Source of the DNA: Candidatus Latescibacterota bacterium
GTDB taxonomy: Bacteria; Latescibacterota; UBA2968; UBA8231
Reading direction: 5' to 3'
Assembly (NCBI GenBank): GCA_016187725.1
Contig: JACPJE010000017.1
Location: forward strand, 1 to 64,000
Length of the DNA: 64,000 nt
How positions within the stretch are numbered: the first letter of the stretch is position 1; every line of letters begins with the position of its first letter. The notes below the pieces were generated by a model. That model saw only the letters and a list, made by a program, of their open reading frames with translations, was not told the DNA's origin and searched no databases. Made by a program: the position numbers and the translations under genes. Shown here in pieces: positions 45,592 through 61,315 of this stretch.

Positions 45592-48274
45592 TTATCCGGC
45601 GAGGTGCTCCCTGAGGCAGCGGCCGGTCCACGAGTGTTCCACCGCGGCGATCTCCTGGGGGGTGCCCACGGCCACGATTTCGCCGCCGGCCTCGCCGCCC
45701 TCGGGGCCCAGGTCGATCACGTAGTCGGCGGCCCCGATCAGTTCGAGGTGGTGCTCCACCACCAGAGCGGTGTTGCCCTGGTCCACCAGGCGCTGGAGCA
45801 GTTCGAGCAGGAAGCGCACGTCCTCCAGGTGCAGGCCGGTGGTGGGCTCGTCCAGGATATAGAGGGTGTGGCGGCGGGAGAGCCGGCTCAATTCGGCGGC
45901 CAGCTTCACCCGCTGGGCCTCCCCCCCGGAGAGGCTGGGGGCCGGCTGGCCCAGGGGCAGATAGCCCAGCCCCACCTGGCTGAGCAGGTCCAGGCGCCGG
46001 GCCAGGGCGGGGATGGCGCCGAAATGCGCGAGGGCCTCCTCCGCGCTCAGCTCCAGGACCTCGGCGATGCTCAGGTTACGGTAGCGGATCTCCAGCACCT
46101 CGCCCCTATAGCGCCCTCCGCCACAGGAGAGGCAGCGCCGGGCCAGTTCGTCCCAGTCCCCCTCCCCGGATTGGGACAGGCCGCTGCCCCTGCATTCGGG
46201 GCAGGCCCCTTCGGGGGCATTGAAACTGAAGTGGGAGGCGGTGTAACCCCGCATCCTGGATTCGGGGATTTCGGCGTAGAGCTGGCGCAACTCGCCCATC
46301 AGCCCGGTATAGGTGGTCGGATTGGAGCGGGGGGTGCGGCCCAGGGGGCGTTGGTCCACGGCCACTGCGCGCTCCACCAGCTCCAGGCCCTGGCAGTCTT
46401 CACAGGGCAGGGGGCGCCGGGCAGGGGCCCCCAGGTGCTGGGCCAGCAGGGGGTAGAGGGTATGGTGGACCAGGGTGCTCTTGCCCGAGCCGGAGACCCC
46501 GGTGACACAGACCAGGTTGCCCAGCGGGAAGGCGACCGAGAGATGTTTGAGATTGTGGCCGCAAGCCCCGGTGAGGCGCAGCCAGCCTTCGGGGCCGGGC
46601 GGGCGGCGCGGCCCGCGTTCCAGGCGGGTCCTGCCGCTCAGGTGGCGCCCGGTGGGGGAGTCGGCAGCCATCAACTGGGCGGGGGTGCCCTGGGCAAGGA
46701 GGCGCCCGCCCCGGGCGCCGGCGCCGGGCCCCAGGTCCACCAGGTGGTCGGCGCCGCGGATCAGCAGGGGATCGTGCTCCACCACCAGCAGGGTGTTGCC
46801 GGCATCGCGCAAGGCCCTGAGGAAGCTCAGCAGCCGGCCCGCGTCCCGGGGGTGCAGGCCACAGCTGGGCTCGTCCAGCACGTAGAGCACCTGGGTCAGG
46901 CCCGCGCCCAGGGCCGCGCCCAGGCGCAGGCGCTGGAATTCCCCGCTGGAGAGGGTGTCGGCCCGCCGGTCCAGGGCCAGGTAGCCCAGGCCCAGTTCCT
47001 CCAGGGTGGCCAGCCGGCGCTGGACCTGCGCGGCCAGGATCTGGCCCACCGGGGCCTGCGGGGCCGCAAAGCTCAGGCCGGCGACGATCTGGGCTGCCTG
47101 GGTGACTGGACAGGCCGTCAGCGAGGCGATGGTGTGGCCGCCCAATTCCACGGCCAGGGCTTCGGGGACCAGCCGGTGGCCCTGGCAGGCCGGGCAGGGC
47201 GCCTCTCCCAGGCGCGCGGCGAACCAATCGGCGGCCGGTGCCTGGTTTCTCAGGCCTTCGAGCCAGTGCCTGAGGCCTTTGGCCCGTCTGCCCTCCCCCT
47301 CCCACAGCCAGGCCAGATCCTGGGGCGCCCACGAAGCCAGGGGTGCCTCGGGGTCGAGGTGGTGGCGGTTGCAGAAGACCAGGAGCCGGGTGCGCAGCTC
47401 GCCGCCCCACAGGGGGCCGAGGGCCTCGGCGAGGGAGACCTGATCCGGTCCCAGGACCTGGTTCTGGTCGAGCTGAGGCTGGCGGCCCAGGCCGCGGCAG
47501 GCCGGGCAGGCGCCCTGGGAGCTGTTGAAGGAGAAGAGGGCCGTGGTCAGGGGGCGGAAGGGGGTGGCGCAGGCCGAGCAACTGGGCCGCACGGAGAAGC
47601 GGCGTTCGCCGCCTTCCCAGGCCAGGACGAGCTGGCCTTCCCCCACCTCCAGGGCCGCCTCCAGCGATCCCTGGAGCCGCCGCAGGGTTTCGGGTTTGAC
47701 CACCAGGCGGTCCACGGCGATCTGGGCCCAGCTCCCCGGAGTCAGGGCCGCCGGGTCCACCTCCTCCAGGGCACGGACCTGCCCGGCCAGGCGCAATCGC
47801 CGGTACCCGGTGCGGTCGATGGCCTCCAGAAAATCGGCGGGCTCGCCCTCGGCGGGCACGCGGCGCAGCGCCAGCACGGTCAGCGCGGTGCCGGCGGGCA
47901 GGCCGGCGCCGGTCTCGTAGACTTCCTCGAAGCGCTCGGAGCGCACCGGCGCGCCGCAGCGCAGGCAGTGGGCCTGGCCCAGGCGGGTGAAGAGCAGGCG
48001 CAGGTAGTCGTAGATCCCCGCCAGCACCGCCACGGTGGAGCGGGGGTTCTGGGGAGCGCGGTCCTGGGCGATGGCCAGGGCCGGGGCCAGGCCCTCCAGC
48101 AGGTGGAAGCGGGGGGCGCGCAGGCGGCGCGTAGATGGTGTCGAAGACCAGGGAGGTCTTGCCCGAACCAGAGACCCCGGTGATGGCGATCAGCCTTTGA
48201 TGGGGCAGGTCCAGGTCGAGGTCTTTCAAGTTATGCTCGGCAGCGCCGCGCAGCGAGATGATCCGGCCCTTCAT
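45592..48274 (-). pseudogene. uvrA: UvrA excinuclease subunit, frameshifted after the first Walker A
   Basis: Start [20 protein letters not shown]; Walker A1 [19 protein letters not shown] near 29-47. Immediately after (about 48130) the frame changes and the rest continues intact: '[20 protein letters not shown]', zinc motif [11 protein letters not shown]...[10 protein letters not shown], signature [13 protein letters not shown], Walker A2 [39 protein letters not shown] and 'LYILDEPTTGLHLEDV'. The segment expected between DTIYA and the following RR (EGQ/EGR) is short, so a small deletion caused the shift. Total about 894 residues. It is either a genuine knock-out or a sequence error; no second uvrA is in view. 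Confidence 0.85.
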
Positions 48275-48350
48275 CGGCAGGGGGCTCTTGACAGCAAGGG
48301 GTTGAACTGAGTAGGTATTGATAATACCCAAACCAAATCAGGGCGAGATG

Positions 48351-49148
48351 ATGGCATTGAGAGTACTGTTCTTCGCGCTTTCCCTGGCGCCCCTGGCGCT
48401 GGGGGCTCAGGAGGAGCCGGAAGTGATCAAGGGCACGGCGGACGCGGGCCGGCGCCTGTACTACTCGGCGGCGATGAGCACCAACGGCCTGTCCTGCGCC
48501 CACTGCCACGCCGATTTCGACGAGGTGGCCGAGGACGACGGCCTGATCCGGGCCGGTCACAGTCTCTACGGGGCGGCCAGCCGCCCCAACTGGTGGGGGC
48601 GGGAGCCGGACCAGCCCAATGCCTATCCCAATATCGCGGCGGCGGCGGCCGTCTGCGTGGAGCACTTTATGCGCAATCCCCAGCGGCTCACCGCCCAGCA
48701 GATGGTGGATCTGCGCGCTTATCTGCGCTTCATCAACCGCAAGCAGCAGCGCGAGTCCCTGGCGCTCGTCTCGGGGGCCGATCTGACCGGCGAGTACCTG
48801 GGCTTTGAGGAGGGGGACCGGCTCAAGGGGCGCGACTTGTTCTACGCCGCCTGCCACTCCTGCCATCCCAATGCCAAGTCCGGCATCGGTCCGGCCCTGC
48901 CGCGCGACCGGGAGCCGGCCTTCTATGCGAAGAAGGTGCGCGAGGGCGACGGCCTGGGCGCCCAGCTCACCGGGTTGGACCCCAATGCCTACGACCCGAA
49001 TGCCGGTCTCTTCATGCCCTTCTTCGCGGTGGACCGGTTGAGCAACCAGCAGCTGAGCGATATCATCGCCTATATCAGGAGCCTCCCGCCTCCCGAGCCG
49101 CCGGCCAAGAGCAAGACCAAGGGCAAGGGCGCGGCCCCTAAGCGCTAG
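48351..49148 (+). CDS. Secreted diheme c-type cytochrome
   Basis: This 265-residue protein starts at the second of two adjacent ATGs. A short signal peptide (MALRVLFFALSLAPLALGAQ) is present. Heme motifs are CAHCH near 49 and CHSCH near 168. Met-containing segments 'CVEHFMRNPQRLTAQQMVDL' and 'LFMPFFAVDRLSNQQLSDII' may supply axial ligands. Each half ends with the usual 'DIIAYIRSL'/'DLRAYLRFI' helix of class I cytochromes. A Lys-rich tail closes it. It probably carries electrons in the periplasm. It is divergent from uvrA, with 76 bp between. Confidence 0.88.
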   Translation: MALRVLFFALSLAPLALGAQEEPEVIKGTADAGRRLYYSAAMSTNGLSCAHCHADFDEVAEDDGLIRAGHSLYGAASRPNWWGREPDQPNAYPNIAAAAAVCVEHFMRNPQRLTAQQMVDLRAYLRFINRKQQRESLALVSGADLTGEYLGFEEGDRLKGRDLFYAACHSCHPNAKSGIGPALPRDREPAFYAKKVREGDGLGAQLTGLDPNAYDPNAGLFMPFFAVDRLSNQQLSDIIAYIRSLPPPEPPAKSKTKGKGAAPKR

Positions 49149-49295
49149 GCGTCGGTGAGCGACCCACTCCGGCCTTTCCCCAGGCGCGTCCTGCCCCCTC
49201 GCTCGCTCTGGCTCCGCTACCCCGCAGCTCTACCACGCGGACTTCCCTGCCCATCCACTCCCCGGGAAAGCCCTACGGGGTCATCTCCCCGCCGC
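49149..49295. repeat. MITE-like element, copy 4
   Basis: Left end GCGTCGGTGAGCGACCC, right end reading GCGGCGGGGAGATGACCC on the other strand, 147 bp, same orientation as copies 2 and 3. It fills the gap between the cytochrome gene and the convergent phosphotransferase gene and overlaps the last 15 bases of the latter, supplying its C-terminal residues. Confidence 0.82.
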
Positions 49296-50522
49296 AGGTA
49301 ATCGTAATTCTTCGACTTCCACCCACAGCCAGCGGCCCGCGTGGAAGAAGAGGGTGCAGACCATCCAGACCGCCATCGACACCAGGGCCAGGTGCGCCTG
49401 GCCCAGGAGCACACCCACACTCAGCTGCAAGAGGCTCACATTGCGCCGGGAGGCGATCAGGTGGAAGGCCGCGTCCAGGGGCCGGTAGTCGAAGATCTCC
49501 CGCCGGTGGCGTTTTTTGAAGGTGCTGCTGACGACCTTGTCCAGCACAAAGGCGCCCACCAGCACCCAGGTGGCCAGGGCCATGGGCGTGTCCCGCAGCA
49601 ATTCTCCCCCGCTGCAGTGCCAGCCCAGGGCCAGGTACCACAATCCCAGGCCCGGCATGGCGCTCAGGTGCTCCAGCGCGCCCATCGCCTCGCTCAGGTG
49701 CAGGGTCAGGCGCGCCAGCTTGCCGTCCACCGAATCGAGGATCACCCCCAGCCAGGCAAAAAGCACGCCGGCCCCCAGCTCTCCTAGAGCAAAACAGGGG
49801 ACCACCGCCCAGATGGCCAGGATGGACAGGGCGGTGAAGAGGTTAGGGGGCAGGGTAGTGCGGCTGAGTTGCCGGGTGATCCAGCGCACCAGGTGGTAGT
49901 ACCCGTAGCGGGCCACGGCGTCGATGACCCCCTTGAAGGTGCGGTGGTAGAGCAGCTGGTCCAGGGAGTGTAGTTGCCCCTTTTCGCGGACGCGCAGCAG
50001 GTAGGGGGGCATGGTGAGGCGCAGGGAAGGGACATAGGGGTCAAGCTCGGTGGGCCGGCGGCGCGGCAGGCCGGCGGCGGCCAGGGCGGCGCCCAGATCG
50101 ACCCCGGTCTCCCAGTACCCGGCCAGGGCGCGGGCCTGGGCGAGGCCCAGGTAGGCCACCACCTCGTCGCCTTCGGCCAGTGCCGTGCCCGGTCCGCCCT
50201 TGAGCAGGTGGCCCAGCAGCCGGTCGTCGAAGACCAGATCCCCCTGCAGGAGCAGCACCGGCTCGTCCGCCTGGGTCAGGGCGGCGCAGAGCGGGGCCTC
50301 ATCCTCGGCGGGAAGCACTTCCAGCTGCAGGGGGAAGACGCGCTCCAGGTCGGTGCGCAGGCGCAGGACCCCTTGCTGGGTGGCGGGGGAGACCCAGATG
50401 CGCGCCCGGGAAAAACCGCGCAGGGCGGCCTGGCGCAACTGGCGTTCGACCAGGTTCATGCCCCACAAGCGCCAGCCGGCGGCCGGCTGGCGGGCATCGA
50501 TCCAGACCAGACCCGGGTCCAT
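49281..50522 (-). CDS. NTase-like/CDP-alcohol phosphotransferase fusion with degenerate active site (module 1)
   Basis: This 413-residue protein has a soluble N-terminal half (1-175) resembling a nucleotidyltransferase fold but lacking the GxGTRL motif. A membrane half follows with about six helices and the CDP-alcohol signature start LDSVDGKLARLTLHLSEAMG. The canonical pattern DG-x2-AR-x8-G-x3-D-x3-D is kept only in its first half: the last two aspartates are replaced (E and A by position). Its paralogue at 53762 keeps all. It follows a real nucleotidyltransferase by 8 nt. The fold resembles IPCT/DIPPS-type inositol enzymes. It could be inactive, regulatory or altered in chemistry. Confidence 0.72.
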   Translation of the reverse strand: MDPGLVWIDARQPAAGWRLWGMNLVERQLRQAALRGFSRARIWVSPATQQGVLRLRTDLERVFPLQLEVLPAEDEAPLCAALTQADEPVLLLQGDLVFDDRLLGHLLKGGPGTALAEGDEVVAYLGLAQARALAGYWETGVDLGAALAAAGLPRRRPTELDPYVPSLRLTMPPYLLRVREKGQLHSLDQLLYHRTFKGVIDAVARYGYYHLVRWITRQLSRTTLPPNLFTALSILAIWAVVPCFALGELGAGVLFAWLGVILDSVDGKLARLTLHLSEAMGALEHLSAMPGLGLWYLALGWHCSGGELLRDTPMALATWVLVGAFVLDKVVSSTFKKRHRREIFDYRPLDAAFHLIASRRNVSLLQLSVGVLLGQAHLALVSMAVWMVCTLFFHAGRWLWVEVEELRLPAAGR

Positions 50523-50530
50523 GGCGCCTC

Positions 50531-51241
50531 TCAGGGGCCCTGCAGGCGGGGGAGCACTTCGCGGGAGACGCGCTGGTAGTCTTCCAGCGAATCGATCTCG
50601 CCCCAGGGCAGGTCGCCCACCTCGACGGCGTAGAGTTCGCGCCGGGCGATGAGGGGCCCGTAGGCCGAGGTGGGGAAGACCTCGCGGTGTTGCTCGCCCA
50701 CGAGGCGTTCCACCTCTCGGCCCACCGCCCGGGCGCCCTGGCGGTCGAACTTGACCAACTGGGCGCTCTGGGCCTGGCTGTGCTGGGGGGCCAGCTGCTT
50801 GCTGATGGCCAGCACCCGCTGCTGGCCGTCGCAGGCCACGTTCATCTCGCCGGCCAGGCGCGCCACCTGCGCGTCCACGGCCACGGCGTTGGGGCGGGCC
50901 AGCAGGCGCTGCAGGACCAGGGGGTGAAAGAGGATATCGCAGTTGAAGAGCAAGATGTCGGTGTCCAGTTCGGCGGCGGCCAGGTACAGGGAGTAGATGC
51001 TGTTGGTGCTCAGGTAGTCGGGATTTTCGATGTAGCGGGCGTGGGGCCCGCAGTGGGCGCGGATCTGATCTGCCTCGTAGCCCACCACCAGCACCACGTC
51101 CTCAACCCCGGCCTGGCGCAGGGCTTGCAGCTGGTAGTCGATCAGGCGGCGCTGGCCCACCTTCACCAGGCACTTGGGGCAGCCGTCGGTCAGCGGGCTG
51201 AGGCGGGTGCCGGCCCCGGCCGCCAGGATGATCGCCTTCAT
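50531..51241 (-). CDS. Sugar/polyol-phosphate nucleotidyltransferase (module 1)
   Basis: This 236-residue GT-A-fold enzyme has the activation loop MKAIILAAGAGTRLSPLTDG with PKCL after it. It also has 'GVEDVVLVVGYEADQIRAHC', the Asp motif 'ILLFNCDILFHP' and a C-terminal 'GDLPWGEIDSLEDYQRV'. This matches short cytidylyltransferases that activate choline-, inositol- or glycerol-phosphate (LicC/IPCT-like). Its immediate partner is the CDP-alcohol phosphotransferase-like fusion, so CDP-activated polyol is the likely product. The alcohol is not known. Confidence 0.82.
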   Translation of the reverse strand: MKAIILAAGAGTRLSPLTDGCPKCLVKVGQRRLIDYQLQALRQAGVEDVVLVVGYEADQIRAHCGPHARYIENPDYLSTNSIYSLYLAAAELDTDILLFNCDILFHPLVLQRLLARPNAVAVDAQVARLAGEMNVACDGQQRVLAISKQLAPQHSQAQSAQLVKFDRQGARAVGREVERLVGEQHREVFPTSAYGPLIARRELYAVEVGDLPWGEIDSLEDYQRVSREVLPRLQGP

Positions 51242-51245
51242 GGGG

Positions 51246-52829
51246 TCACTGCTTCCTGCGGAAAAGGCGTTTGAAGGGGGCCTTGGCCCGCTGCAGCATC
51301 AGCCGGTCCTCGGCGCTGAGGCCCAGGGAGCGCAATGCCGCCAGATAAACGCCCAGAAAGGCGGCCAGCGGCAGCGCCAGGGACCAGGCCAGGCCCTCGG
51401 GAGCGGCCTGGCGGCAGAGCCAGCCGGCCAGGGTGCCCCCCAGCGCGGCCAGCAGCGGTTTGAGCTGGGCTCGGTGGAAGGGCAGGATATCGTGGATCAG
51501 GTAGAGCTGGGCCAGGCGCAGGGCGCCCGACGCCAGTGCGGAAAGGGTGGCGCCCCAGGCCGCGCCCATCAGGCTGTAGTCCCGGATCAGCCAGAGGTTG
51601 AGCAGGAAGTTGGCCCCCAGCCAGAAGCCGTTGTTGAACATATTGAGATAGGGTCTGCCGGCCATGGTCAGCACCGGGTCCACCATGGCGAAGAGGCCCT
51701 GGGCCATCATGGCGATGCACAGCACCGCCATGACCACCAGACCGACGTGGAAGTCGGCTCCCTGGGCCTGACCCATGAGTTGCATCAACGCGTCGCCGGC
51801 CAGCAGGATGGCCGCGCAGATGGGCAGGTTGATGGTCAGGATCCAGCCGGAGATCACCGAGAAGCGGTGCCCCAGGGCGCGGTGCTGTTCGCGGGCCGAC
51901 AGTTCGCTGGCGATGGAACTGAAGATGGGGTCCAGGGATTGGGGGGCCTTGAGCATGGCGCCGGCGATGCTTTTCGCCAGCGCGTAGATGCCGACCTGGG
52001 CCACCACCCGGCTGGGATCGCCGGCCAACAGGATCCCCAGCATCAACACGTCGAGATTGCTCAGAATCCCGTAGATGGAGTCGGTGGTCATCACCGGCAG
52101 GGAGAAGCGGCCCATGGTCTTCCAAGGCAATGCCTGGCGCATCCGGCCCAGACAGGCGCGCAGGGAGTAGAAATGGCCGAAGTACCGGGCCGCCAGGCAG
52201 CAGCTGCCGACGGCCATGGTCATATTGGCCCAGGCCAGGCCCTCCAAGCCCCAGCCGGCCAGGCCGGTCACCAGACTGGAGAGCAGCAGGATCAGCGGGC
52301 CGGCGACGGACATCACGTACACGTCGTAGCGCATGATGCGCAGGGCCCGGGTGGCGGCCACGAAGATCCAGGCCCAGGTCATGAAAGGGGTGGAGAGGGC
52401 CATGATGCGCACGGCTCTGGCGATGGGCTGGCCGTAGAAAGCGGCGATCCAGTCGGCCGCCAGCCAGGTGCCCAGCAGCACCGCGCCGCTGGCCAGGGTC
52501 CCCAGTCCCAGGGCCGCGGCCAGGACGCGCTCCACTTCCGCCTGGTCCCCGGCGGTGCGGGCGGCCACCGCAAAACGCACCACCCCCACCTGCAGGCCAA
52601 AACGGCCCAGGCGCTGGATGAGGGAGGCGATGCTCCACGCAGTGCTGAAAAGACCCAGCACCTGCAGGCCGCATAGCAAGGGCACCGCCCATAGAAAAGC
52701 CCCGCGCGAGAGTCTTCCCAGCTTGCCGACGAAGTTGACCAGGGCGCCGCTGGCCAGATCCCTGATATCCCTTTCGGTCTCGGCGGTGCGGGCGGGCGGT
52801 GCGGGCGGCGCGCTGAGCGTCTGGGTCAC
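51246..52829 (-). CDS. Wzx-type lipid/oligosaccharide flippase (MOP superfamily)
   Basis: This 527-residue polytopic protein has about 12-14 hydrophobic helices. 'ASGALVNFVGKLGRLSRGAF' opens the first helix, as in polysaccharide-biosynthesis flippases, and 'RFSLPVMTTDSIYGILSNLD' and 'YALAKSIAGAMLKAPQSLDP' are typical internal repeats. MOP flippases move lipid-linked saccharides across the inner membrane. It is the first gene of the minus arm of the envelope locus, 5 nt before the nucleotidyltransferase gene, so its cargo probably bears the phospho-alcohol made there. Confidence 0.82.
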   Translation of the reverse strand: MTQTLSAPPAPPARTAETERDIRDLASGALVNFVGKLGRLSRGAFLWAVPLLCGLQVLGLFSTAWSIASLIQRLGRFGLQVGVVRFAVAARTAGDQAEVERVLAAALGLGTLASGAVLLGTWLAADWIAAFYGQPIARAVRIMALSTPFMTWAWIFVAATRALRIMRYDVYVMSVAGPLILLLSSLVTGLAGWGLEGLAWANMTMAVGSCCLAARYFGHFYSLRACLGRMRQALPWKTMGRFSLPVMTTDSIYGILSNLDVLMLGILLAGDPSRVVAQVGIYALAKSIAGAMLKAPQSLDPIFSSIASELSAREQHRALGHRFSVISGWILTINLPICAAILLAGDALMQLMGQAQGADFHVGLVVMAVLCIAMMAQGLFAMVDPVLTMAGRPYLNMFNNGFWLGANFLLNLWLIRDYSLMGAAWGATLSALASGALRLAQLYLIHDILPFHRAQLKPLLAALGGTLAGWLCRQAAPEGLAWSLALPLAAFLGVYLAALRSLGLSAEDRLMLQRAKAPFKRLFRRKQ

Positions 52830-52991
52830 GTCGAGGGTCTTTGCCGAGAGGGGGTGGGGTGAGAAGGCTGGAGAAAATATAAATCACCCGCGGCGATTTA
52901 TCGAGCCTGGCCCGTTCTCATTGACGGGATCTAGGTTTGTGCATAGATTGTCACAATTGGTCTACACGCTGATTTTTTGCGCCCAAGTGCG
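52830..52991. promoter_or_regulatory. Divergent promoter region of the envelope locus
   Basis: This 162-bp AT-rich gap separates the two arms. It holds an AAATCAC...GCGATTT-like inverted repeat (about 52880-52899) and AT-rich stretches that could serve promoters in both directions. I could not assign clear -35/-10 pairs. Shared control of both arms is an inference from layout. Confidence 0.4.
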
Positions 52992-53765
52992 ATGAAAGCT
53001 ATAGTCCTGGCGGCTGGTCAGGGCCGCAGATTGTGGCCGTTCACCGCGAATTGCCCCAAGTGCCTGCTGCCCATCGGCGCAGGTTCCATCCTGGAACAGC
53101 AACTGACCAATCTGGAGGGCGCTGGCATCCGGGAGGTGGTCCTGGTGTGCGGGTTCGGGATCGAGCGAATCCGCGCGGTCCTCGGCGCCTTCCGCGGGCA
53201 ATTGTCGGTGAAACTCAGCTACAACCCCTTTTACGCCCTCGCTGACAACCTCGTCTCGCTGTGGACTGTGCGCGCCGAGATGGACCGCGATTTTCTGCTG
53301 CTCAACGGCGACAATGTCTTTCACCCCCAGATCCTCCAGCACCTGCTGGCAGCCCAAAAGTGCTGCTGCCTGATGATCCGGCGCAAGGCCTGCTACGACC
53401 AGGACGACATGAAGCTGCACGTGGAAGGCGGGCAGATCCGCGCCATCGGCAAGGCCCTGCCGGCCGCCCAGGCCGAATCGGTGGGCATCATGCGCTTTGC
53501 CGGCGAGGGGCGCCGATGCCTGATGGGGGTGCTGGAGGACCTGATCTCCAGGGCGGGCACCACCTCGAAGCTGCGCTACGTGGCCGGGGTGCAGCGGCTC
53601 ATCGACCTGGGGCACCCGGTGGCCGGCCTCGAAGTGGGCGAGTTGCCCTGGGCCGACGTGGACACGCCCGAGGACCTGCGCTTTGTGCGCCGCCATCTCC
53701 AGCTCTTCGCAGGTGGCGAGGCGGTGGCGCCGGGCCGGCTGCGGGAGGCGGGGGCGCGCGCATGA
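52992..53765 (+). CDS. Sugar/polyol-phosphate nucleotidyltransferase (module 2)
   Basis: This 257-residue GT-A enzyme starts at MKAIVLAAGQGRRLWPFTAN with NCPKCLLPIG. It shows 'IREVVLVCGFGIERIRAVLG', 'FLLLNGDNVFHPQILQHLL' and 'GELPWADVDTPEDLRFVR'. It resembles the module 1 enzyme in motif wording but is divergent (G-R-R-L instead of G-T-R-L), so it may activate a different phospho-alcohol. It overlaps the following phosphotransferase by 4 nt, repeating the arrangement on the opposite strand. Confidence 0.82.
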   Translation: MKAIVLAAGQGRRLWPFTANCPKCLLPIGAGSILEQQLTNLEGAGIREVVLVCGFGIERIRAVLGAFRGQLSVKLSYNPFYALADNLVSLWTVRAEMDRDFLLLNGDNVFHPQILQHLLAAQKCCCLMIRRKACYDQDDMKLHVEGGQIRAIGKALPAAQAESVGIMRFAGEGRRCLMGVLEDLISRAGTTSKLRYVAGVQRLIDLGHPVAGLEVGELPWADVDTPEDLRFVRRHLQLFAGGEAVAPGRLREAGARA

Positions 53766-55168
53766 TCCGCCAGGGCCTGCTGATCTTTCCCGACCTCCAG
53801 CGCGGCGCTGATCTGATGTCCAGGCGGGTGGCGGGGCTTTCCCTGCTGGACCGCATGGTGCGGACCATGGCGCGCGCCGGGGTCGAGCAACTGGCGGTGG
53901 TGGTCCCGCCCGGAGCGCCGCGCCAGGTGGGTCGGCTGCCCCGCAAGTTGTGCGTCGAGGTCCGGTTTCTCGAGTGGGGAACCCCTGCGCCCCTGCCTTT
54001 TCCCCCGCTGGGGGAGGGCCTGCTGGTGGTCATGGGCGGGTACGTGCACCATCACGCCTCGCTGAGCGAGTTGGTCGAGGAGGGGTTGGGAGAGGGTGAG
54101 CTGGTGGTCCAGGTGAGTGCCCCGGTCCAGCGCGGCTCCTTTATCCAGGTCCACCTCCGGGCGGGCGAGGTGGAGTTCGCCGCTGCCGAGGGAGGGGAGA
54201 GCGCCAGTTCGGGGGCCTTGCTGTGCGCCTTTGGGCTGGGTGCTCCCGAAGAACTCCTGAGGGGGCGGGAGGAGGTGTGGGCCTGGTTGAGCCGCAGCGC
54301 CCGGGGCCGCCGGGTGCAACTGCGCCGCACCTCGCGGTCTCTGTGGCGGCGGGTCGAGGACCGCCGCGGCGCCCGGGCCGCCAAGAACATGCTCTTCAGC
54401 CAGGTGACCAAGGCCACCAGCGGCTTCATCTCGCGCCATCTCAACGCGCGCATCTCCATCCCCACCAGCAAGCTGCTGATCGAGACGGGCATTTCCCCGC
54501 ATCTGGTGACCGTGTTGCTGGTGCTGCCCGCCGGGCTGGCCAGCGCCTACCTGGTGACGCGGCCCGAGCAGTACCTCTGGCTGGCCGGTGCGGGCGTGTT
54601 GTGGCAGCTGGCGGCCATCCTCGACCGCTGCGACGGGGAGATCGCCCGCGTCCAGCTGAGCGAGTCGAAGTTCGGCGCCTGGTTCGACACCCTCACCGAC
54701 AACCTCGCCTATCTGTGCGCCTACAGCGGTATGCTGGTCGGCCTGCGCCGGGTGCACCCGGAAGCGCCCTATTATCTCTACCTGGGGATTTCGGCCATCG
54801 CCGCCCTGCTGCTGACCCTGGGCATCATGTACAGCTACGCCCTCAAGACCGGCAGCGGCAGCCTGCAGAACTACCTGGTGGGCCTGGCCCGCCACGTGCC
54901 CGAGGACCAGAAGGGGGGCTTCTACCGCTTCACCGAGCGCTACGGCTTTCTGGCCAAGCGCGACACCTTTTCCTTCATCTTCTTCATCGCCGCCCTGGCC
55001 GATGCGCTGGAGTTCATGTACTGGTTCGCGGTGGTGGGCATCCACCTGGTGGCCATCGGGGTGCTGATCTCCCAGCAGAAGATGCTGCAGGGGTACCAGC
55101 GCGCCGAGGGCCAGGAGACGGTGCCGGTGGCGGTGCCGCGCACCTCCTCCCTGGAGCGCCGGCCGTGA
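53762..55168 (+). CDS. NTase-like/CDP-alcohol phosphotransferase fusion (module 2, intact motif)
   Basis: This 468-residue protein has an N-terminal soluble domain (1-190) without catalytic nucleotidyltransferase residues. A linker 'RRVEDRRGARAAKNMLFSQV' precedes a membrane domain with the full signature: D-RC-DG-EI-AR-VQLSESKF-G-AWF-D-TLT-D (about 298-320). All catalytic aspartates are present, so it should transfer a phospho-alcohol from a CDP donor to a hydroxyl acceptor at the inner membrane. A soluble loop 'GLARHVPEDQKGGFYRFTER' separates later helices. Fusion layout resembles IPCT/DIPPS of inositol phosphodiester synthesis. The next gene overlaps by 4 nt. Confidence 0.82.
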   Translation: MIRQGLLIFPDLQRGADLMSRRVAGLSLLDRMVRTMARAGVEQLAVVVPPGAPRQVGRLPRKLCVEVRFLEWGTPAPLPFPPLGEGLLVVMGGYVHHHASLSELVEEGLGEGELVVQVSAPVQRGSFIQVHLRAGEVEFAAAEGGESASSGALLCAFGLGAPEELLRGREEVWAWLSRSARGRRVQLRRTSRSLWRRVEDRRGARAAKNMLFSQVTKATSGFISRHLNARISIPTSKLLIETGISPHLVTVLLVLPAGLASAYLVTRPEQYLWLAGAGVLWQLAAILDRCDGEIARVQLSESKFGAWFDTLTDNLAYLCAYSGMLVGLRRVHPEAPYYLYLGISAIAALLLTLGIMYSYALKTGSGSLQNYLVGLARHVPEDQKGGFYRFTERYGFLAKRDTFSFIFFIAALADALEFMYWFAVVGIHLVAIGVLISQQKMLQGYQRAEGQETVPVAVPRTSSLERRP

Positions 55169-56193
55169 AGATCCTCAGGCTCCTGCTCCCCGGCCTGGGG
55201 CTTTTGCTGCTGGGCTACCTGATCGGCAAGATGGGCATGGGGGAAATCCTGCACCACCTGGCCATCGTCAAGTGGTCCTTCCCCCTGGTGCTGCTGGTCG
55301 CCTTCCTGTGGCACCTGAGCAATTCCCTGGCCTGGAGCTTCGCCTTCCCGCCTGGGGCTTTCAAGCCGCCTTTCTCAGCCCTGCTGAAAGCCAAGCTGGC
55401 CGGCGACGCGGTCAGCCAGCTCACCCCCCTGGCCAACCTGGGCGGCGAACCGCTCAAGGCGTACCTGCTCAAAGGCCAGGCCCCCACCTCGTTGAGCCTG
55501 GCGGCGGTGGTGGTCAACAAGACCACCCAGGTGCTCACCGGCCTGATCTTCTCGTCCCTGGGCTTCGTGATGGTGGTCTCCCACTGGGACCTGCCCCATG
55601 CCCTGCCCCGCTCGGTGGAACTGGGCCTGGGCCTGATCCTGGCGGCCAGCGGCCTGATGATCTGGGGACTCTACCGCCAGCAGAACCGCCTGTTCACCTC
55701 GCTGCTGATCCTGATCCGCCGGCTGGGCCTCAAGACCGACTGGGTCGAGAGCAAGATGGCCCAGGCCAGGCGCATCGACCACCACATCGGCCACTTCTAC
55801 CACCGCCACCAGGTGCGCCTGGCCGCGGTGGTGGGCTGCCACGCCCTGGGCTGGCTGCTGGGGACCTGCGAGACCTACGTGATCCTGCAGGCCCTGGGGG
55901 TGGACATCGATTTCGCAGTGGCCCTGCTGCTCACCTCCCTGTCGGTGAGCATCAACAGCCTCTTCTTCTTCATGCCCTCCAGCATCGGCGTGCTCGAAGG
56001 CAGCCAGGTCTTCCTCTTCCTGAGCCTGGGCCTCAATCCGGCCGCGGGGCTCTCGATGGGGATCGTCAAGCGGCTGCGCAAGGTCTTCTGGATTTCCGTC
56101 GGCTGGGTCTTCCTCTCCCAGATGAGCCGCAAGATCGCCCGCGCCGAGGAGCAGCAGCAGGCCTCTGCCCGGGCCGGGTCCCTGCCCCGATGA
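55165..56193 (+). CDS. UPF0104/lysylphosphatidylglycerol synthase-type membrane protein
   Basis: This 342-residue protein starts at GTG overlapping the previous stop. About eight helices are predicted. 'LTPLANLGGEPLKAYLLKGQ' and 'AVVVNKTTQVLTGLIFSSLG' are family signatures (PF03706, the flippase half of MprF and HpnL-like proteins), as is 'FFFMPSSIGVLEGSQVFLFL'. Such domains are thought to translocate lipids between leaflets. No aminoacyl-transferase domain is attached. Placed between a phosphotransferase and trans-envelope exporters, it is a candidate lipid flippase for the product. Confidence 0.82.
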   Translation: MKILRLLLPGLGLLLLGYLIGKMGMGEILHHLAIVKWSFPLVLLVAFLWHLSNSLAWSFAFPPGAFKPPFSALLKAKLAGDAVSQLTPLANLGGEPLKAYLLKGQAPTSLSLAAVVVNKTTQVLTGLIFSSLGFVMVVSHWDLPHALPRSVELGLGLILAASGLMIWGLYRQQNRLFTSLLILIRRLGLKTDWVESKMAQARRIDHHIGHFYHRHQVRLAAVVGCHALGWLLGTCETYVILQALGVDIDFAVALLLTSLSVSINSLFFFMPSSIGVLEGSQVFLFLSLGLNPAAGLSMGIVKRLRKVFWISVGWVFLSQMSRKIARAEEQQQASARAGSLPR

Positions 56194-57536
56194 AGCGGAA
56201 GGGCAACTGGGCGGCGCTGTGGCTGGGTGGCTGGGCCTGCGCGGCCAGTGCCTGGGCCGCCGAACCCCAACCCCCCTACGATCTGCAGGAACTGACCGAA
56301 CTGGCCCTGCGTCACACCCTCGCAGTCGGGGAGGGTTCTTGGAAGGTGGCCGGCGCGCAGGCCAGGTTGCGTCAGGTGGAGGCGGCGCGATTTTTGCCTC
56401 GCCTGCGCCTGGAGAGCACCAGCGGGCTGGTGCCCGCCGCCGAGGGCGACATCTTCAATCCGCCCCAGGACACGGCCGGCCTGCGGGAACTGGGCCCCTT
56501 CACCCAGGCCGAACTGGAATTCATCCAGCCCCTGTACGTGGCCGGCGCCGCGCAGCTGTGGCGGGCGGCCCAGCAGGGGGTGGCGGCCGAAGAGGCCGCC
56601 CTGCAGGGCCAGCGCCTGGAGCTGGAGCTGGAGGTGGCCGAACTCTACTACGGCCTCCTGCTGGCCCGCCAGCTGGGGGACCTGGCCGTGGAGCTGAGGA
56701 AAAAGATCGAGGATAAGCGCTCCGAGATCGAGGACAACCCCGCCATCCCCTTGTCTGGGCACTACAAGTTCCAGCTGGCCCTGGTGGAGCTGGACAAGCA
56801 ACAACAATTGATCGCCCAGAAGAAAGAGCTGGCCCTGGCGGCCCTGGCCTGGAAAACCGGACTGAAGGAGGGGGAAAGCGCGAAACTGGAAAGCCAGGGA
56901 CTGGCGCCCGAAACGGCGGTGCTACCGCCCTTGGACAGCCTGTGCACCCTGGCCTTTACCCAGCGTCCGGACTGGCGCCGGCTCCAGGCCGGACTGCAGG
57001 CCAAGGATGCCCTGGCCCAGGCGGCGCGGGGGGGGTACTATCCGCAGGTGGTGCTCAGCGGAGCCCTGCGCTACGCGGTGGCGCCCCGCCGCACCGACCA
57101 GCACAATCCCTTTGTCAAGGACGAATTCAACTACCTCAACGGCGGGGTGGTGCTGCGGCTGCGCCAGGCCCTGGAGTGGGACCTGATCGGCGCCGAGGTG
57201 GACAAGGCGCGGGCCGAATACCAGGAACTCAAGGCCAAGGAGCGGGTCAACGCCCAGGGCCTGCGGGTGGACGTGCAGCGCGCCTATGGCGAGTACCAGC
57301 AAGCCGCCGCCGAACTGGGGGCGGCCACCGAGGTCCGCCGGCTCAGCCGCCAGTGGGCCAGGGAGGCGCAGGAGGCGTTCGAACTGGACCCCGAGGAGGC
57401 CAAGGAACTCATCGCCGGCTTCGAGGCCTGGGCCCAGAGCGAACAGGCCTACTACGAAGCGGTGTACCGTCACAACGTGGCCCTGGTTGAACTCGAAAAA
57501 ACCACCGGTGGCCTTTCCCTGCGGGGGCAGCCGTGA
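56190..57536 (+). CDS. TolC-family outer-membrane efflux protein
   Basis: This 448-residue protein has a signal peptide (MKRKGNWAALWLGGWACAAS, ending near AWA). It shows the two-fold TolC architecture: 'DLQELTELALRHTLAV' and its counterpart 'LDSLCTLAFTQRPDWRRLQA', followed by 'ARGGYYPQVVLSGALRY' and long coiled-coil helices. It would form a trimeric channel through the outer membrane. It overlaps both neighbours by 4 nt, tying it to the lipid locus and making it the likely exit duct or partner for the MMPL transporter. Confidence 0.85.
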   Translation: MKRKGNWAALWLGGWACAASAWAAEPQPPYDLQELTELALRHTLAVGEGSWKVAGAQARLRQVEAARFLPRLRLESTSGLVPAAEGDIFNPPQDTAGLRELGPFTQAELEFIQPLYVAGAAQLWRAAQQGVAAEEAALQGQRLELELEVAELYYGLLLARQLGDLAVELRKKIEDKRSEIEDNPAIPLSGHYKFQLALVELDKQQQLIAQKKELALAALAWKTGLKEGESAKLESQGLAPETAVLPPLDSLCTLAFTQRPDWRRLQAGLQAKDALAQAARGGYYPQVVLSGALRYAVAPRRTDQHNPFVKDEFNYLNGGVVLRLRQALEWDLIGAEVDKARAEYQELKAKERVNAQGLRVDVQRAYGEYQQAAAELGAATEVRRLSRQWAREAQEAFELDPEEAKELIAGFEAWAQSEQAYYEAVYRHNVALVELEKTTGGLSLRGQP

Positions 57537-58318
57537 AGGGCTGGATGATCAGCTGGTTCGGTGGTCTGCTGCTGGCGGCCGCCGGGGTCCTGGCCCAGGA
57601 GGGGGGAGAGGGGTATCTCCTCCTGGAGGATTTCTCCGGCACCCCCGTGGGCCAGCTGCCCAGGGACTGGACCTGGCGCGACCGGGATGCCGAGAAGCCC
57701 AAGCCCTATGTGGTGGAGGGTGCCGAGGACCGGCGCTATCTGGCGGCCCGCGACACCGGCTCTTCGGTGATCCTGGGCAGGCAGGTCCAGTGGAATCCGC
57801 TGACCTATCCCATCCTGAGCTGGTGCTGGCGGGCCAACGCCCTGCCCCCGGGCGGGGACGAACGCTACGACCGCACCAACGACAGCGCCGCCGGCCTGTA
57901 CGTGATCTTCTCGACCAACTGGCTGGGAGTGCCCAGGCAGATCAAATACGTGTGGAGCACGACCCTGGAGGAGGGGACTTCGGGCCGGCGCAACCGGGTC
58001 GCCCGGCCCTTCTTTGTGGTGGTGGAGAGCGGTGCACGAAACCTGGGCAAATGGATCTTCGAGCAGGTGGACCTAGTCGCCGACCACCAGCGTTTCTACG
58101 GCAAAAGCCCCCCTGAGCGCACCATGGGCCTGGGGATCCTCACAGACGCCAATTCCACCCACTCCTATGCCGAGGCCTTTTACGCCGGCCTGCGGGTGTG
58201 GACCAGGGAGGCCCAGGAGCGCGGGCTGATCGAGAACTATTGCAGCTGTTACGAAGAGGCCAGCGCGGGGCAACCGGCATCAGCCCCCACCCAACACCTC
58301 CCCCTGCCGGGGAAGTAG
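57533..58318 (+). CDS. DUF3047 exported protein
   Basis: This 261-residue protein starts at GTG inside the previous stop. A signal peptide (about 1-22, ...GVLAQ) is followed by the DUF3047 beta-rich domain: 'LLEDFSGTPVGQLPRDW', 'LSWCWRANALPPGGDER', 'NDSAAGLYVIF', 'IKYVWSTTLEEGT' and 'GLGILTDANSTHSYAEAFY'. The fold resembles carbohydrate-binding/lectin sandwiches. The function of the family is not established. Its place beside MlaC and MMPL genes suggests periplasmic handling of the exported molecule. Confidence 0.83.
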   Translation: MKGWMISWFGGLLLAAAGVLAQEGGEGYLLLEDFSGTPVGQLPRDWTWRDRDAEKPKPYVVEGAEDRRYLAARDTGSSVILGRQVQWNPLTYPILSWCWRANALPPGGDERYDRTNDSAAGLYVIFSTNWLGVPRQIKYVWSTTLEEGTSGRRNRVARPFFVVVESGARNLGKWIFEQVDLVADHQRFYGKSPPERTMGLGILTDANSTHSYAEAFYAGLRVWTREAQERGLIENYCSCYEEASAGQPASAPTQHLPLPGK

Positions 58319-58332
58319 AGAGGAGGATATAG

Positions 58333-58935
58333 ATGAAAGGCCTGCAGTTCTTCAGCGCCCTGTGCCTGACCCTGGGTGCGGCGGGGGCGGTCGAGTTACC
58401 CGATCCCATCGCTTTTCTCCAGGGCCGCGACGCCCAGGCCCAGGCCATCGTCAAACAGGCTCCAGATGGCGCCCTGCCCCCCGTCCTGCGCCGGCAGCTG
58501 GACCACCACATCAACGAGGTCTTCGATTTCGGCGAGCTGAGCCGGCTGGCCCTGGGTGCCGAATGGGACAAGCGCAGCGCCCCGGAACGGCAGCGCTTCG
58601 TCGAGGTCTTCGGCTCCATCATCCGCGAAAAGAACTATACCAGCTTCCTGCGCTACTACCGCGAGGGCAGGATCAGCTACCAGGAAAAGAAGGTGGAGGG
58701 GGAGCGGGCCACGGTGCAAGCGGTGGTGCCCCTCAAGCAGGAAAAGGTGGCCATCGGCTACCTGCTGCGCGCCAGCCAGGGGCAGTGGCGGGTGTACGAC
58801 CTGGTCATCGACGGGGCCAGCACCGCCGACGGGTACCAGCGCCAGTACGCGCGCTACCTCCAGAAGCACACCTATGAGCAGCTCATCCAGCAGCTCGGCA
58901 AACAGCTAGACAGTTTGCGCCAGGCGAAGAACTGA
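58333..58935 (+). CDS. MlaC/Ttg2D-family periplasmic phospholipid-binding protein
   Basis: This 200-residue protein starts at ATG after GAGGAGG. It has a signal peptide (MKGLQFFSALCLTLGAAGA). The MlaC pattern is 'LRRQLDHHINEVFDFGELSR', 'SAPERQRFVEVFGSIIREKN' and 'WRVYDLVIDGASTADGYQRQ'. MlaC proteins shuttle phospholipids between membranes. No Mla ABC genes are nearby. The partner here is an MMPL transporter instead, as in hopanoid HpnM/HpnN pairs. Confidence 0.88.
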   Translation: MKGLQFFSALCLTLGAAGAVELPDPIAFLQGRDAQAQAIVKQAPDGALPPVLRRQLDHHINEVFDFGELSRLALGAEWDKRSAPERQRFVEVFGSIIREKNYTSFLRYYREGRISYQEKKVEGERATVQAVVPLKQEKVAIGYLLRASQGQWRVYDLVIDGASTADGYQRQYARYLQKHTYEQLIQQLGKQLDSLRQAKN

Positions 58936-58942
58936 GCGCTGA

Positions 58943-61315
58943 ATGCGCCTCGACTACGGGCGGCTGGTCCATTATGTCTATCACCACCACCTGCGCATCA
59001 TCCTGCTGGCGCTGCTGCTCTCGGTGGGGGCGGGTTATTTCGCCCTGCAGCTGCGCATCCAGACCGACTTCGCCGATCTGCTGCCCGAGGACTACGTCAG
59101 CGTCCGCGAACTGAATCGCATCAAGGAACGAGTGGGGGGCATCAGTCCCCTGATCATCGTCGTCACCTCCGAGGATCTGGTCCCGGCCGCCCGCTTTGTG
59201 GACGTGCTGGCCGATTCCCTCGAACAGAATCCCTTCGTCACCGCGGTGGTCAGCCGCCACCACGACCACGACTTCTACAGCCACAACCGCCTGCTCTACA
59301 TGGAACACGCGGATCTGGAGGAGGTGCACCGGCGCCTGGCCGACTATATCGAGGAGCAGAAAGTCAGGCAGTCGCCCCTCTACGTGCCGCTCGACGATGG
59401 GGAACTGACGCTGGACTTCTCCGACCTGGAGTCCAAGTACCAGCGGCGCAACGACCAGACCGGCCTGGCGCGCGACTACCTGCTCACCGTCGAGCAGAAC
59501 GGCATCACCCTCAGCGTCTATCCGGCCGGCGGGGTCACCGACATCAAGTTCACCCGCCGGCTGATGGCCAGCATCGACCAGACCATCGCCGCCCTCCAGC
59601 CGCAGACTTATCATCCCAGCATCAGGTGCGTATACCAGGGCACGGTCAGGAACAACGCCGCCAACTACGACGCGGTGATGCAGGACATGAAACTCACCTC
59701 GCTCCTCAGCCTGCTGGGGGTGCTGGCGCTGATCTCGCTCTATTTTCGCCAGGTCCTGTCTTCGGTGTTGGTCGCCATCCCGCTGGTGATGAGCCTGGCC
59801 TGGACCTTCGGGCTGACCTATCTGGTGATCGGCAACCTCAACCAGATCACCGTCGGACTCTTCGCCATCCTCTTCGGCCTGGGCATCGACTACGGCATCC
59901 ACGTCTTCGCCCGCTACCGCGAGGCCAGGAGGCGGGGGCTGGAGGTGGAGGCGGCCCTGGACGAGACCCTGCAGCAGACCGGCACCTCGCTGACCACCAG
60001 CGGGCTGACCACCGCGGTGGCTTTCTTCTCGATGATGACCGCCGACTTCAGGGGGTTCTTCGAGTTCGGCTTCATCGTCGGCACCGGGATCATCTTCTCG
60101 CTGGCGGCGATGATCGCCGTCTGCCCGGCCTTCATCGTGCTGGCCGAGCGCTGGCACCTGGTCCGCCTGTGGCAGCAGCAGACGCCGCCCCACCTGCTGC
60201 GCCGGGGGCGGTACCCGCTGCCCAAGGTCACCCTGGGGCTGTGCGCCCTGCTGACCGCCTACGCGTTCTATCGCCTCGGCGACGTCGAGTTCGAGTACGA
60301 TTTCCAGAAGCTGCAGCCGCCCTCCCCCAGTGCCGGCTTCACCCTGCCCGAGGAGGTGAGGGAGGTCCGCTCGCCGGCCATCGTGCTCACCGAGAGCGCC
60401 GCCGAGGCGGGGGAGGTGGTGGCGGTGCTCGAAGCGCGCAAGGCCGCCGGAGGCGATTCCTCCGCCATCGGCCTGGTCAGGAGCGTCTATTCGGCCCTGC
60501 CCGCCGAACAGGAGGCCAAGCTGGAGACCATCGGCCGCATCCGCCAGCTGCTGGACGACGAGGAGGGCTTCTTCTCCGCCGACCAGCAGGCCCGGGTGGA
60601 CTCGCTGCGGCCCTATCTCCAGGTCAGAGAACTGCGGCTGGAGGACCTGCCGCCGGAAAAGACCAAGATCTTCCGCAGCAAGGAGGGGCAGCTCCTCAAT
60701 TTCGTGATGATCACCTCCTCGCTGCCCCTGCGCGACGGCCGCAACGCCATCCGCTTTGCCGAGGAGGTCAAGGAGATTCCCACTCCTTCAGGCAAGGTCT
60801 TTTACGCCTCCAGCTCCCACATCATCTTCGCCGAGATGCTGGAACTGATGGTCAGCGACGGCACCAAGGCCATCGGCCTCACCCTGCTGATCGTCTCCGC
60901 CGTGCTCTACGCCGATCTGCGCCGGGTCCGGGACACCCTGCTGGCCCTGACCCCACTGCTGACCGGGCTGGTCTGGGCCACCGGCATCATGTACCTCTTC
61001 GACATCCGCCTCAACTTCTACAACATCATCGCCTTCCCCACGGTGATCGGCATGGGCATCGACAACAGCGTGCACATCTTCCACCGCTACCGCGAGGAGG
61101 GGCCGGGTTCCATGCGCCTGGTGCTGCGCACCACGGGGGTGGCGCTGGTGGCCACCTCGATGACCAACATGGTGGGTTTTGCCGGCTGCCTTTCAGCCCA
61201 CCATCCCGCCCTCACCGCCATCAGCACCCTGGCGCTGATCGGCATGAGCTGCTGCTTTGTCACCTCCGTCTCCCTGCTGCCCGCCCTGCTGCAGTTGGGG
61301 GAGCGGCGCGCCTGA
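58943..61315 (+). CDS. MMPL/RND-superfamily lipid exporter (HpnN-like)
   Basis: This 790-residue protein has twelve predicted helices in two SSD-like repeats and two large periplasmic domains. N-terminal 'FADLLPEDYVSVRELNRI' is typical of HpnN/MMPL. Conserved helix-4 motifs are 'ILFGLGIDYGIHVFARYRE' and 'VIGMGIDNSVHIFHRYRE', whose G-x-x-x-D-Y/N aspartates relay protons. HpnN-like proteins carry hopanoids or other lipids to the outer membrane. No hopanoid-synthesis genes are visible here, so the cargo is more likely the phospho-alcohol lipid of this locus. Last gene of the arm. Confidence 0.88.
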   Translation: MRLDYGRLVHYVYHHHLRIILLALLLSVGAGYFALQLRIQTDFADLLPEDYVSVRELNRIKERVGGISPLIIVVTSEDLVPAARFVDVLADSLEQNPFVTAVVSRHHDHDFYSHNRLLYMEHADLEEVHRRLADYIEEQKVRQSPLYVPLDDGELTLDFSDLESKYQRRNDQTGLARDYLLTVEQNGITLSVYPAGGVTDIKFTRRLMASIDQTIAALQPQTYHPSIRCVYQGTVRNNAANYDAVMQDMKLTSLLSLLGVLALISLYFRQVLSSVLVAIPLVMSLAWTFGLTYLVIGNLNQITVGLFAILFGLGIDYGIHVFARYREARRRGLEVEAALDETLQQTGTSLTTSGLTTAVAFFSMMTADFRGFFEFGFIVGTGIIFSLAAMIAVCPAFIVLAERWHLVRLWQQQTPPHLLRRGRYPLPKVTLGLCALLTAYAFYRLGDVEFEYDFQKLQPPSPSAGFTLPEEVREVRSPAIVLTESAAEAGEVVAVLEARKAAGGDSSAIGLVRSVYSALPAEQEAKLETIGRIRQLLDDEEGFFSADQQARVDSLRPYLQVRELRLEDLPPEKTKIFRSKEGQLLNFVMITSSLPLRDGRNAIRFAEEVKEIPTPSGKVFYASSSHIIFAEMLELMVSDGTKAIGLTLLIVSAVLYADLRRVRDTLLALTPLLTGLVWATGIMYLFDIRLNFYNIIAFPTVIGMGIDNSVHIFHRYREEGPGSMRLVLRTTGVALVATSMTNMVGFAGCLSAHHPALTAISTLALIGMSCCFVTSVSLLPALLQLGERRA

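Follow-up and report, generated by a model that had tools for sequence, protein, structure and literature searches.

A ten-gene divergent locus in a Latescibacterota bacterium predicted to link CDP-alcohol chemistry to lipid export

We analyzed a ten-gene locus at positions 49281-61315 of contig JACPJE010000017.1 (assembly GCA_016187725.1), within a window, that is, the whole stretch of DNA under analysis, of 64,000 nucleotides. This window corresponds to contig C9 of a metagenome-assembled genome of 5.56 Mb that is 89% complete; the nearest named relatives of the host are Candidatus Latescibacterota, some of which carry the label Gemmatimonadota in GenBank. An earlier reading made from the letters alone (the sequence-only reading) had proposed here two divergent modules serving one pathway, which would make a lipid from an alcohol phosphate activated with cytidine diphosphate (CDP) and export it through the envelope. 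All ten genes are present where it had placed them, with families backed by Pfam and NCBIfam. On balance, the evidence described below makes it somewhat probable that the ten genes serve to make a membrane lipid bearing a head group, or a lipid-linked phospho-glycan, and to export it.

The minus-strand arm comprises cptA (49281-50522), encoding a degenerate nucleotidyltransferase (NTase)-like domain and a CDP-alcohol phosphotransferase domain with a broken motif (PF01066, fold match, motif columns), ntA (50531-51241), a stand-alone cytidylyltransferase of the LicC/IPCT type with catalytic R, K and D intact, and wzx (51246-52829), a Wzx/MATE-type flippase for lipid-linked glycans with a GTG start (PF13440), separated by gaps of 8 and 4 nt. 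The divergent intergenic region of 162 nt (52830-52991) holds one promoter-like site per direction, both being consensus matches only. The plus-strand arm opens with ntB (52992-53765), a stand-alone cytidylyltransferase predicted from profile matches and active-site residues to make the CDP-alcohol for CptB, and continues with cptB (53762-55168), in which a degenerate NTase domain is joined to an intact CDP-alcohol phosphotransferase domain (PF01066, NF041135, 4mnd), hpnL (55165-56193), a UPF0104/LPG_synthase_TM membrane protein predicted to be an inner-membrane lipid flippase or scramblase (PF03706), and tolC (56190-57536), an outer-membrane efflux protein with a signal peptide at its N-terminus (PF02321). 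These are followed by a DUF3047 gene (57533-58318) for a secreted beta jelly-roll protein with a predicted fold like that of carbohydrate-binding modules (PF11249, structure model), mlaC (58333-58935), a periplasmic lipid-binding protein of the MlaC/HpnM type (PF05494), and mmpl (58943-61315), an HpnN/BstA-like MMPL/RND lipid transporter (PF03176). The 4-nt overlaps reported for most of this arm are found at the ntB-cptB, cptB-hpnL, hpnL-tolC and tolC-DUF3047 junctions, and 14 and 7 nt, respectively, separate DUF3047 from mlaC and mlaC from mmpl.

In both NtA and NtB the catalytic R and K and the metal-binding D are invariant in every aligned member. They appear to correspond to R16, K26 and D112, which are critical in the inositol-phosphate cytidylyltransferase (IPCT) of T. 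maritima (PMC12275187), and both proteins likely use CTP. The PDB matches of the pair are LicC, 4jd0, PntC and IPCT; the phosphocholine enzyme LicC ranks first for each, followed closely by PntC, and NtB aligns over its full length with the inositol-phosphate cytidylyltransferases 4jd0 and 2xme. When active sites were compared, choline, inositol and phosphonate substrates were not separated by these matches. It is quite possible that phosphocholine, phosphoethanolamine, phosphoglycerate, an aminophosphonate or the like takes the place of inositol as the head group. The LicC and PntC matches speak for this, as does the position of the inositol-1-phosphate synthase (MIPS) gene, which lies unlinked on contig C92 of the host; speaking for inositol are the full-length alignments of NtB, the likeness of the two fusions to the bifunctional IPCT/DIPPS enzymes and the presence of MIPS in 54 of 60 related genomes. 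The sequence-only reading had noted that the window has no inositol-phosphate synthase, and indeed none is linked to the locus, but the genome does encode one.

The phosphonate variant also fares poorly in the genomes, since phosphoenolpyruvate mutase scored above the cut-off in only one relative, beside a different CDP-transferase, and nowhere in the host; a phosphonolipid reading was rejected because of this absence from the host. Separately, in G017 (L228, 7551-9635) a phosphoenolpyruvate mutase is fused to a cytidylyltransferase-like domain and lies beside a stand-alone CDP-alcohol phosphotransferase, and in G024 (L125) a partial mutase match lies beside another such stand-alone transferase; this is likely a phosphonolipid locus.

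CptB matches PF01066 and, at 90.5 bits against a curated cut-off of 580 bits, falls below the threshold of NF041135. With its family profile, the IPCT-DIPPS enzyme 4mnd is hit at an E value of 1e-50. Eight of the eight residues of the CDP-alcohol motif DxxDGxxAR(8)GxxxDxxxD are present. In family f1 the N-terminal NTase half of CptB is degenerate, without an intact cytidylyltransferase signature (G-x-G-x-R, K, D), and relatives in families f3 and f4 of the same class retain an intact half (GMGSRL...LPKPL) in an IPCT/DIPPS-like fusion. The two NTases each lie beside a fusion, as had been claimed, but in neither of the fusions is the NTase domain intact. A dead fused NTase next to an active separate one occurs also in Dadabacteria and on other contigs, and we infer that the stand-alone NtB took over from the fused half of CptB. 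The genes flanking the NTase-cpt pair on a Dadabacteria contig offered no clue to function. Around residues 107-113, the degenerate half of the f1 proteins has a conserved histidine run (VHHH/AHHH) at the place where active relatives have DHLF.

The acceptor half of CptB carries an insertion with a conserved GSGS, which distinguishes its clade from the archaeal-type DIPPS rows; the acceptor arginine motif (VRARAEG) of phosphatidylinositol-phosphate (PIP) synthase was not found in CptB, and the GSGS-containing insertion stands at that place. The nearest solved relative of CptB being an osmolyte enzyme, the protein might instead produce an osmolyte, a soluble phosphodiester of the di-myo-inositol phosphate kind, in which case the transport genes would export the osmolyte or be unrelated to it. 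Six helices, the size of CptB, would suit a soluble acceptor (PMC4634129), and an inositol-phosphate synthase is available in the genome. We nevertheless consider this improbable, given that MlaC, the HpnN-type MMPL protein and the UPF0104 protein are lipid handlers linked to cptB across families, and that the GSGS insertion sets CptB apart from archaeal-type DIPPS. An identity of the fusions as cardiolipin or phosphatidylglycerol synthases was considered as well and rejected, CptA and CptB matching IPCT-DIPPS and AF2299 instead; the profile and structure matches to 4mnd and AF2299 agree on this point with the sequence-only reading.

The product of cptA presents a different picture from the working CDP-alcohol phosphotransferase that had been assumed, as it is degenerate in both domains. 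It scores barely above the cut-off of PF01066 and reaches 18.6 bits against 580 for NF041135, and its AlphaFold model (pLDDT 85.5) matches the IPCT-DIPPS enzyme (4mnd, E 2.4e-12) and AF2299 over both domains. In the CDP-alcohol motif the second G is replaced by M, the third D by E and the catalytic base, D4, by A in six of six aligned family members; the same changes are found in sister genera, and two paralogues in the family (L109, L223) retain G, D and D at these positions. An intact cytidylyltransferase signature was not found in the NTase domain either. Since even a D-to-N change at D4 is reported to abolish nearly all activity (PMC4634129), CptA is predicted to be inactive or strongly altered, a pseudo-enzyme, though a conserved one. 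In a tree of the CDP-transferase domains, flagged by the tool as not fully settled, CptA (19 rows, 100/99) and CptB (21 rows, 100/99) form separate, well-supported clades.

In order to follow the gene set among relatives, the window proteins were compared by tblastn with loci from related genomes. All ten genes recur in five other genomes, four of the same genus in identical order (G001-G004) and one of another genus (G009), so that the co-occurrence expected by the sequence-only reading was found. An artefact of assembly does not explain the locus, because the same genes stand in the same order in those four genomes, and the set is not a chance grouping, because it recurs within the genus, in the other genus and, reordered, in other families of the class. 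Nine of the ten genes are kept in G007 and eight in G006, G011, G014 and G016, where cptA and wzx are not at the locus. In the f3 and f4 families all 13 loci examined have cptB beside MlaC and MMPL (the MlaC of L102 being detected in the gene-finder/HMM run only), 11 of them with TolC and 8 with HpnL, and the order there is hpnL-tolC-cptB-mlaC-mmpl. In family f2 (G025) cptB stands with wzx, and hpnL-tolC-DUF3047-mlaC is found at another place. Beyond the phylum, three KSB1 contigs have cpt-DUF3047-tolC-mlaC without MMPL, the cpt gene encoding the same type of CDP-alcohol phosphotransferase. Adjacency of cpt and a UPF0104 gene extends to Nitrospira, Nitrospinota and Saprospiraceae, and in Nitrospira the pair adjoins a glycerol-3-phosphate acyltransferase gene. 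A routine separation of plus-arm genes from the NTase genes, the pattern that would speak against a common pathway, was seen only in part, in genus g7. These comparisons support the view that the pair of NTase and CDP-transferase belongs with UPF0104, TolC, MlaC and MMPL in three or more families of the class and, to some extent, in KSB1.

Whether the two arms form one system is a matter on which the loci of relatives point both ways. In two other Latescibacterota (L147, L149) cptB, a methyltransferase gene, wzx and cptA follow each other on a single strand; L149 then continues with tolC-DUF3047-mlaC, and L147 with a radical-SAM gene, a glycosyltransferase-like gene and a TolC fragment at the contig end. 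Adjacency of wzx and a cpt gene recurs in L101, L109, L126 and L149. In sister genera, cptA and wzx occupy another locus, whereas ntA remains divergent from ntB. Two neighboring systems could therefore be present, wzx-cptA belonging to a surface-glycan pathway and ntA/ntB-cptB-hpnL-tolC-DUF3047-mlaC-mmpl being a lipid export system of its own; the displaced cptA, the constancy of ntA and the lack of wzx near the plus arms of f3 and f4 would fit this. We judge it unlikely, however, in view of the single-strand order in L147 and L149 and of the ten genes standing together in five other genomes. We hold with moderate confidence that both arms are parts of one pathway and can become unlinked. Of the one pathway in two modules proposed at the outset, the unity is backed by L147 and L149, but the arms are not equal enzyme modules, CptA having lost its catalytic residues and wzx-cptA being separable. 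The displaced genes of G006 and G011 form a conserved locus of cptA, a GT4 glycosyltransferase, a sulfotransferase, a protein with a GINT1_N domain and wzx (L218, 8864-15304; L220, 3608-10100), GINT1_N being the N-domain of the plant inositolphosphorylceramide glycosyltransferase.

The export proteins resemble those of known lipid transporters, at scores well short of family identity. HpnL matches PF03706 and the HpnL model at 154.9 bits (curated cut-off 195.65); MlaC reaches 106.3 bits for PF05494 (cut-off 26) and has the hydrophobic N-terminus expected of a secreted family, with 63.6 bits for the HpnM model (curated cut-off 160.1); and MMPL matches PF03176, the HpnN model at 313.7 bits (curated cut-off 751.85) and also the BstA model. 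These matches would be explained by a transporter for hopanoids (HpnL/M/N) or sterols (Bst) that stands beside unrelated enzymes. This is scarcely credible, and was rejected: the scores of all these models are far below the curated cut-offs, no squalene-hopene cyclase was found in the host genome at its 89% completeness, and among 60 relatives one has a substantial match below the cut-off, the other 59 having marginal partial matches or none. UPF0104 proteins belong to the family of the MprF flippase domain; the MprF of P. aeruginosa is a lipid scramblase, and in E. coli YbhN is encoded near genes for cardiolipin synthesis (PMC11980842).

The DUF3047 protein has a signal peptide, and Foldseek matched its structure model (pLDDT 86) to jelly-roll folds with query-normalized TM-scores of about 0.4, among them an axonemal doublet-microtubule protein, a glucuronyl C5-epimerase and the carbohydrate-binding modules CBM4, 11, 16 and 27, which suggests a carbohydrate-binding-like fold. 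In f4, in G009 (a weak match) and in KSB1, DUF3047 and MlaC are fused in one protein; by the gene-fusion argument, the two would act together. In the open-licence full texts searched, nothing was found on the function of DUF3047. Radical-SAM genes, several with SPASM domains, recur among or beside cpt, DUF3047 and TolC genes (L163, L196 (KSB1), L147, L171, L116). A paralogous locus in the same genome (L109, contig C142, 236-5869) carries a cpt gene with intact motif, an NTase gene, wzx, an MlaE permease and an ABC ATPase; a like enzyme set thus seems to be coupled in the same cell to a different lipid transporter.

The closest counterpart in the literature is a predicted inositol-lipid cluster of Bacteroidetes, in which MIPS and a HAD hydrolase accompany an NTP transferase and a CDP-transferase, with a lysylphosphatidylglycerol-synthase-type gene close by (PMC9246714). 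Both loci combine a stand-alone NTP transferase of the phosphocholine-cytidylyltransferase type, a CDP-alcohol phosphatidyltransferase and a UPF0104-type gene. Here, in contrast, MIPS is on another contig, no HAD gene is among the ten, the transferase carries a dead NTase domain as its fusion partner, and the locus also has TolC, DUF3047, MlaC, MMPL, Wzx and a pseudo-CDP-transferase; the core with UPF0104 is of that kind, and the export set, the inactive NTase half, Wzx and the pseudo-transferase go beyond that description. With the A. fulgidus IPCT/DIPPS (4MND) and AF2299 the fusions share the NTase-like and CDP-alcohol phosphotransferase folds, and class-level relatives retain an intact NTase half; they differ in having a degenerate half replaced by a separate protein, a diverged acceptor region and linked lipid-transport genes. 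The kinds of transporter (UPF0104, MlaC-like, MMPL/RND) are those of HpnL/HpnM/HpnN and of sterol BstABC, here without triterpenoid synthesis and with DUF3047 and TolC added. MlaC, like the MlaE and ATPase of the paralogous locus, recalls the Mla pathway, in which the MlaFEDB ABC complex takes the place of the MMPL pump found here. The sequence-only reading knew of no described system with this set, and no paper with the combination of a CDP-transferase and MMPL, MlaC and TolC was found among the open-licence full texts.

Synthesis and export of a head-group-bearing lipid is supported because the NTases keep R, K and D, CptB keeps its full motif and the linkage persists in f1, f3 and f4; because of the single-strand order in L147 and L149, the DUF3047-MlaC fusion and the MlaE and ABC ATPase at the C142 locus; and because cpt-UPF0104 pairs occur in Nitrospira, Nitrospinota and Saprospiraceae and UPF0104/MprF proteins scramble lipids (PMC11980842). 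We infer the reactions, lipid acceptor, inositol-type head group and direction of transport as follows. NtB, and NtA, would convert a polar alcohol phosphate and CTP to a CDP-alcohol, from which CptB would pass the phospho-alcohol on to an acceptor on the cytoplasmic side of the inner membrane. Movement of the product to the periplasmic leaflet would fall to the UPF0104 protein, perhaps with Wzx. From there MMPL, MlaC and DUF3047 would extract it and ferry it through the periplasm, TolC serving at the outer membrane; the head group may be recognized by DUF3047. CptA would be a non-catalytic relative that stays with Wzx and may act as a subunit for binding or coupling. A narrower version, tentative and rather doubtful, is a dedicated route of synthesis and export to the outer membrane for a CDP-derived inositol-type lipid or a sulfated or glycosylated phospholipid, in which MMPL, MlaC, the lectin-like DUF3047 and TolC stand in for the customary lipid carriers and the dead CptA serves the flippase.

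Several observations weigh against this reading. We know of no described tripartite pump in which TolC and an MMPL protein work without a membrane-fusion adaptor. MIPS is unlinked to the locus, and ordinary PIP synthase genes adjoin it in G025 and G051, so that its presence can also be explained without the locus. In genus g7 the plus arm itself is divided into two loci, with cptB-hpnL-DUF3047 in eight loci and tolC-DUF3047-mlaC-mmpl at a separate place (G010, G024). The acceptor region of CptB fits neither PIP synthase nor DIPP synthase. The strongest argument against a lipid acceptor is the architecture of CptB, which has a short C-terminus and six-helix size, since six-helix CDP-transferases are associated with soluble acceptors and lipid-acceptor enzymes usually have three or four extra helices (PMC4634129).

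Around the locus, a tRNA-Gly gene lies beyond mmpl on the minus strand. On the other side a cytochrome c gene (48318-49148, plus strand) adjoins the locus in many family members, with no obvious pathway in common, and in the ORF list a UvrA-like gene (about 45592-48331, minus strand) seems broken over two frames near 48100, possibly by a frameshift or sequencing error.

The delivery of specific lipids other than lipopolysaccharide to the outer membrane is an open question, and this compact locus, which seems to combine lipid head-group enzymes with a flippase, a carrier and a pump, makes the question testable. CptB would be an example of a fused enzyme losing its first half to a stand-alone copy, and the uncharacterized DUF3047 family gains a likely job as a partner of MlaC.

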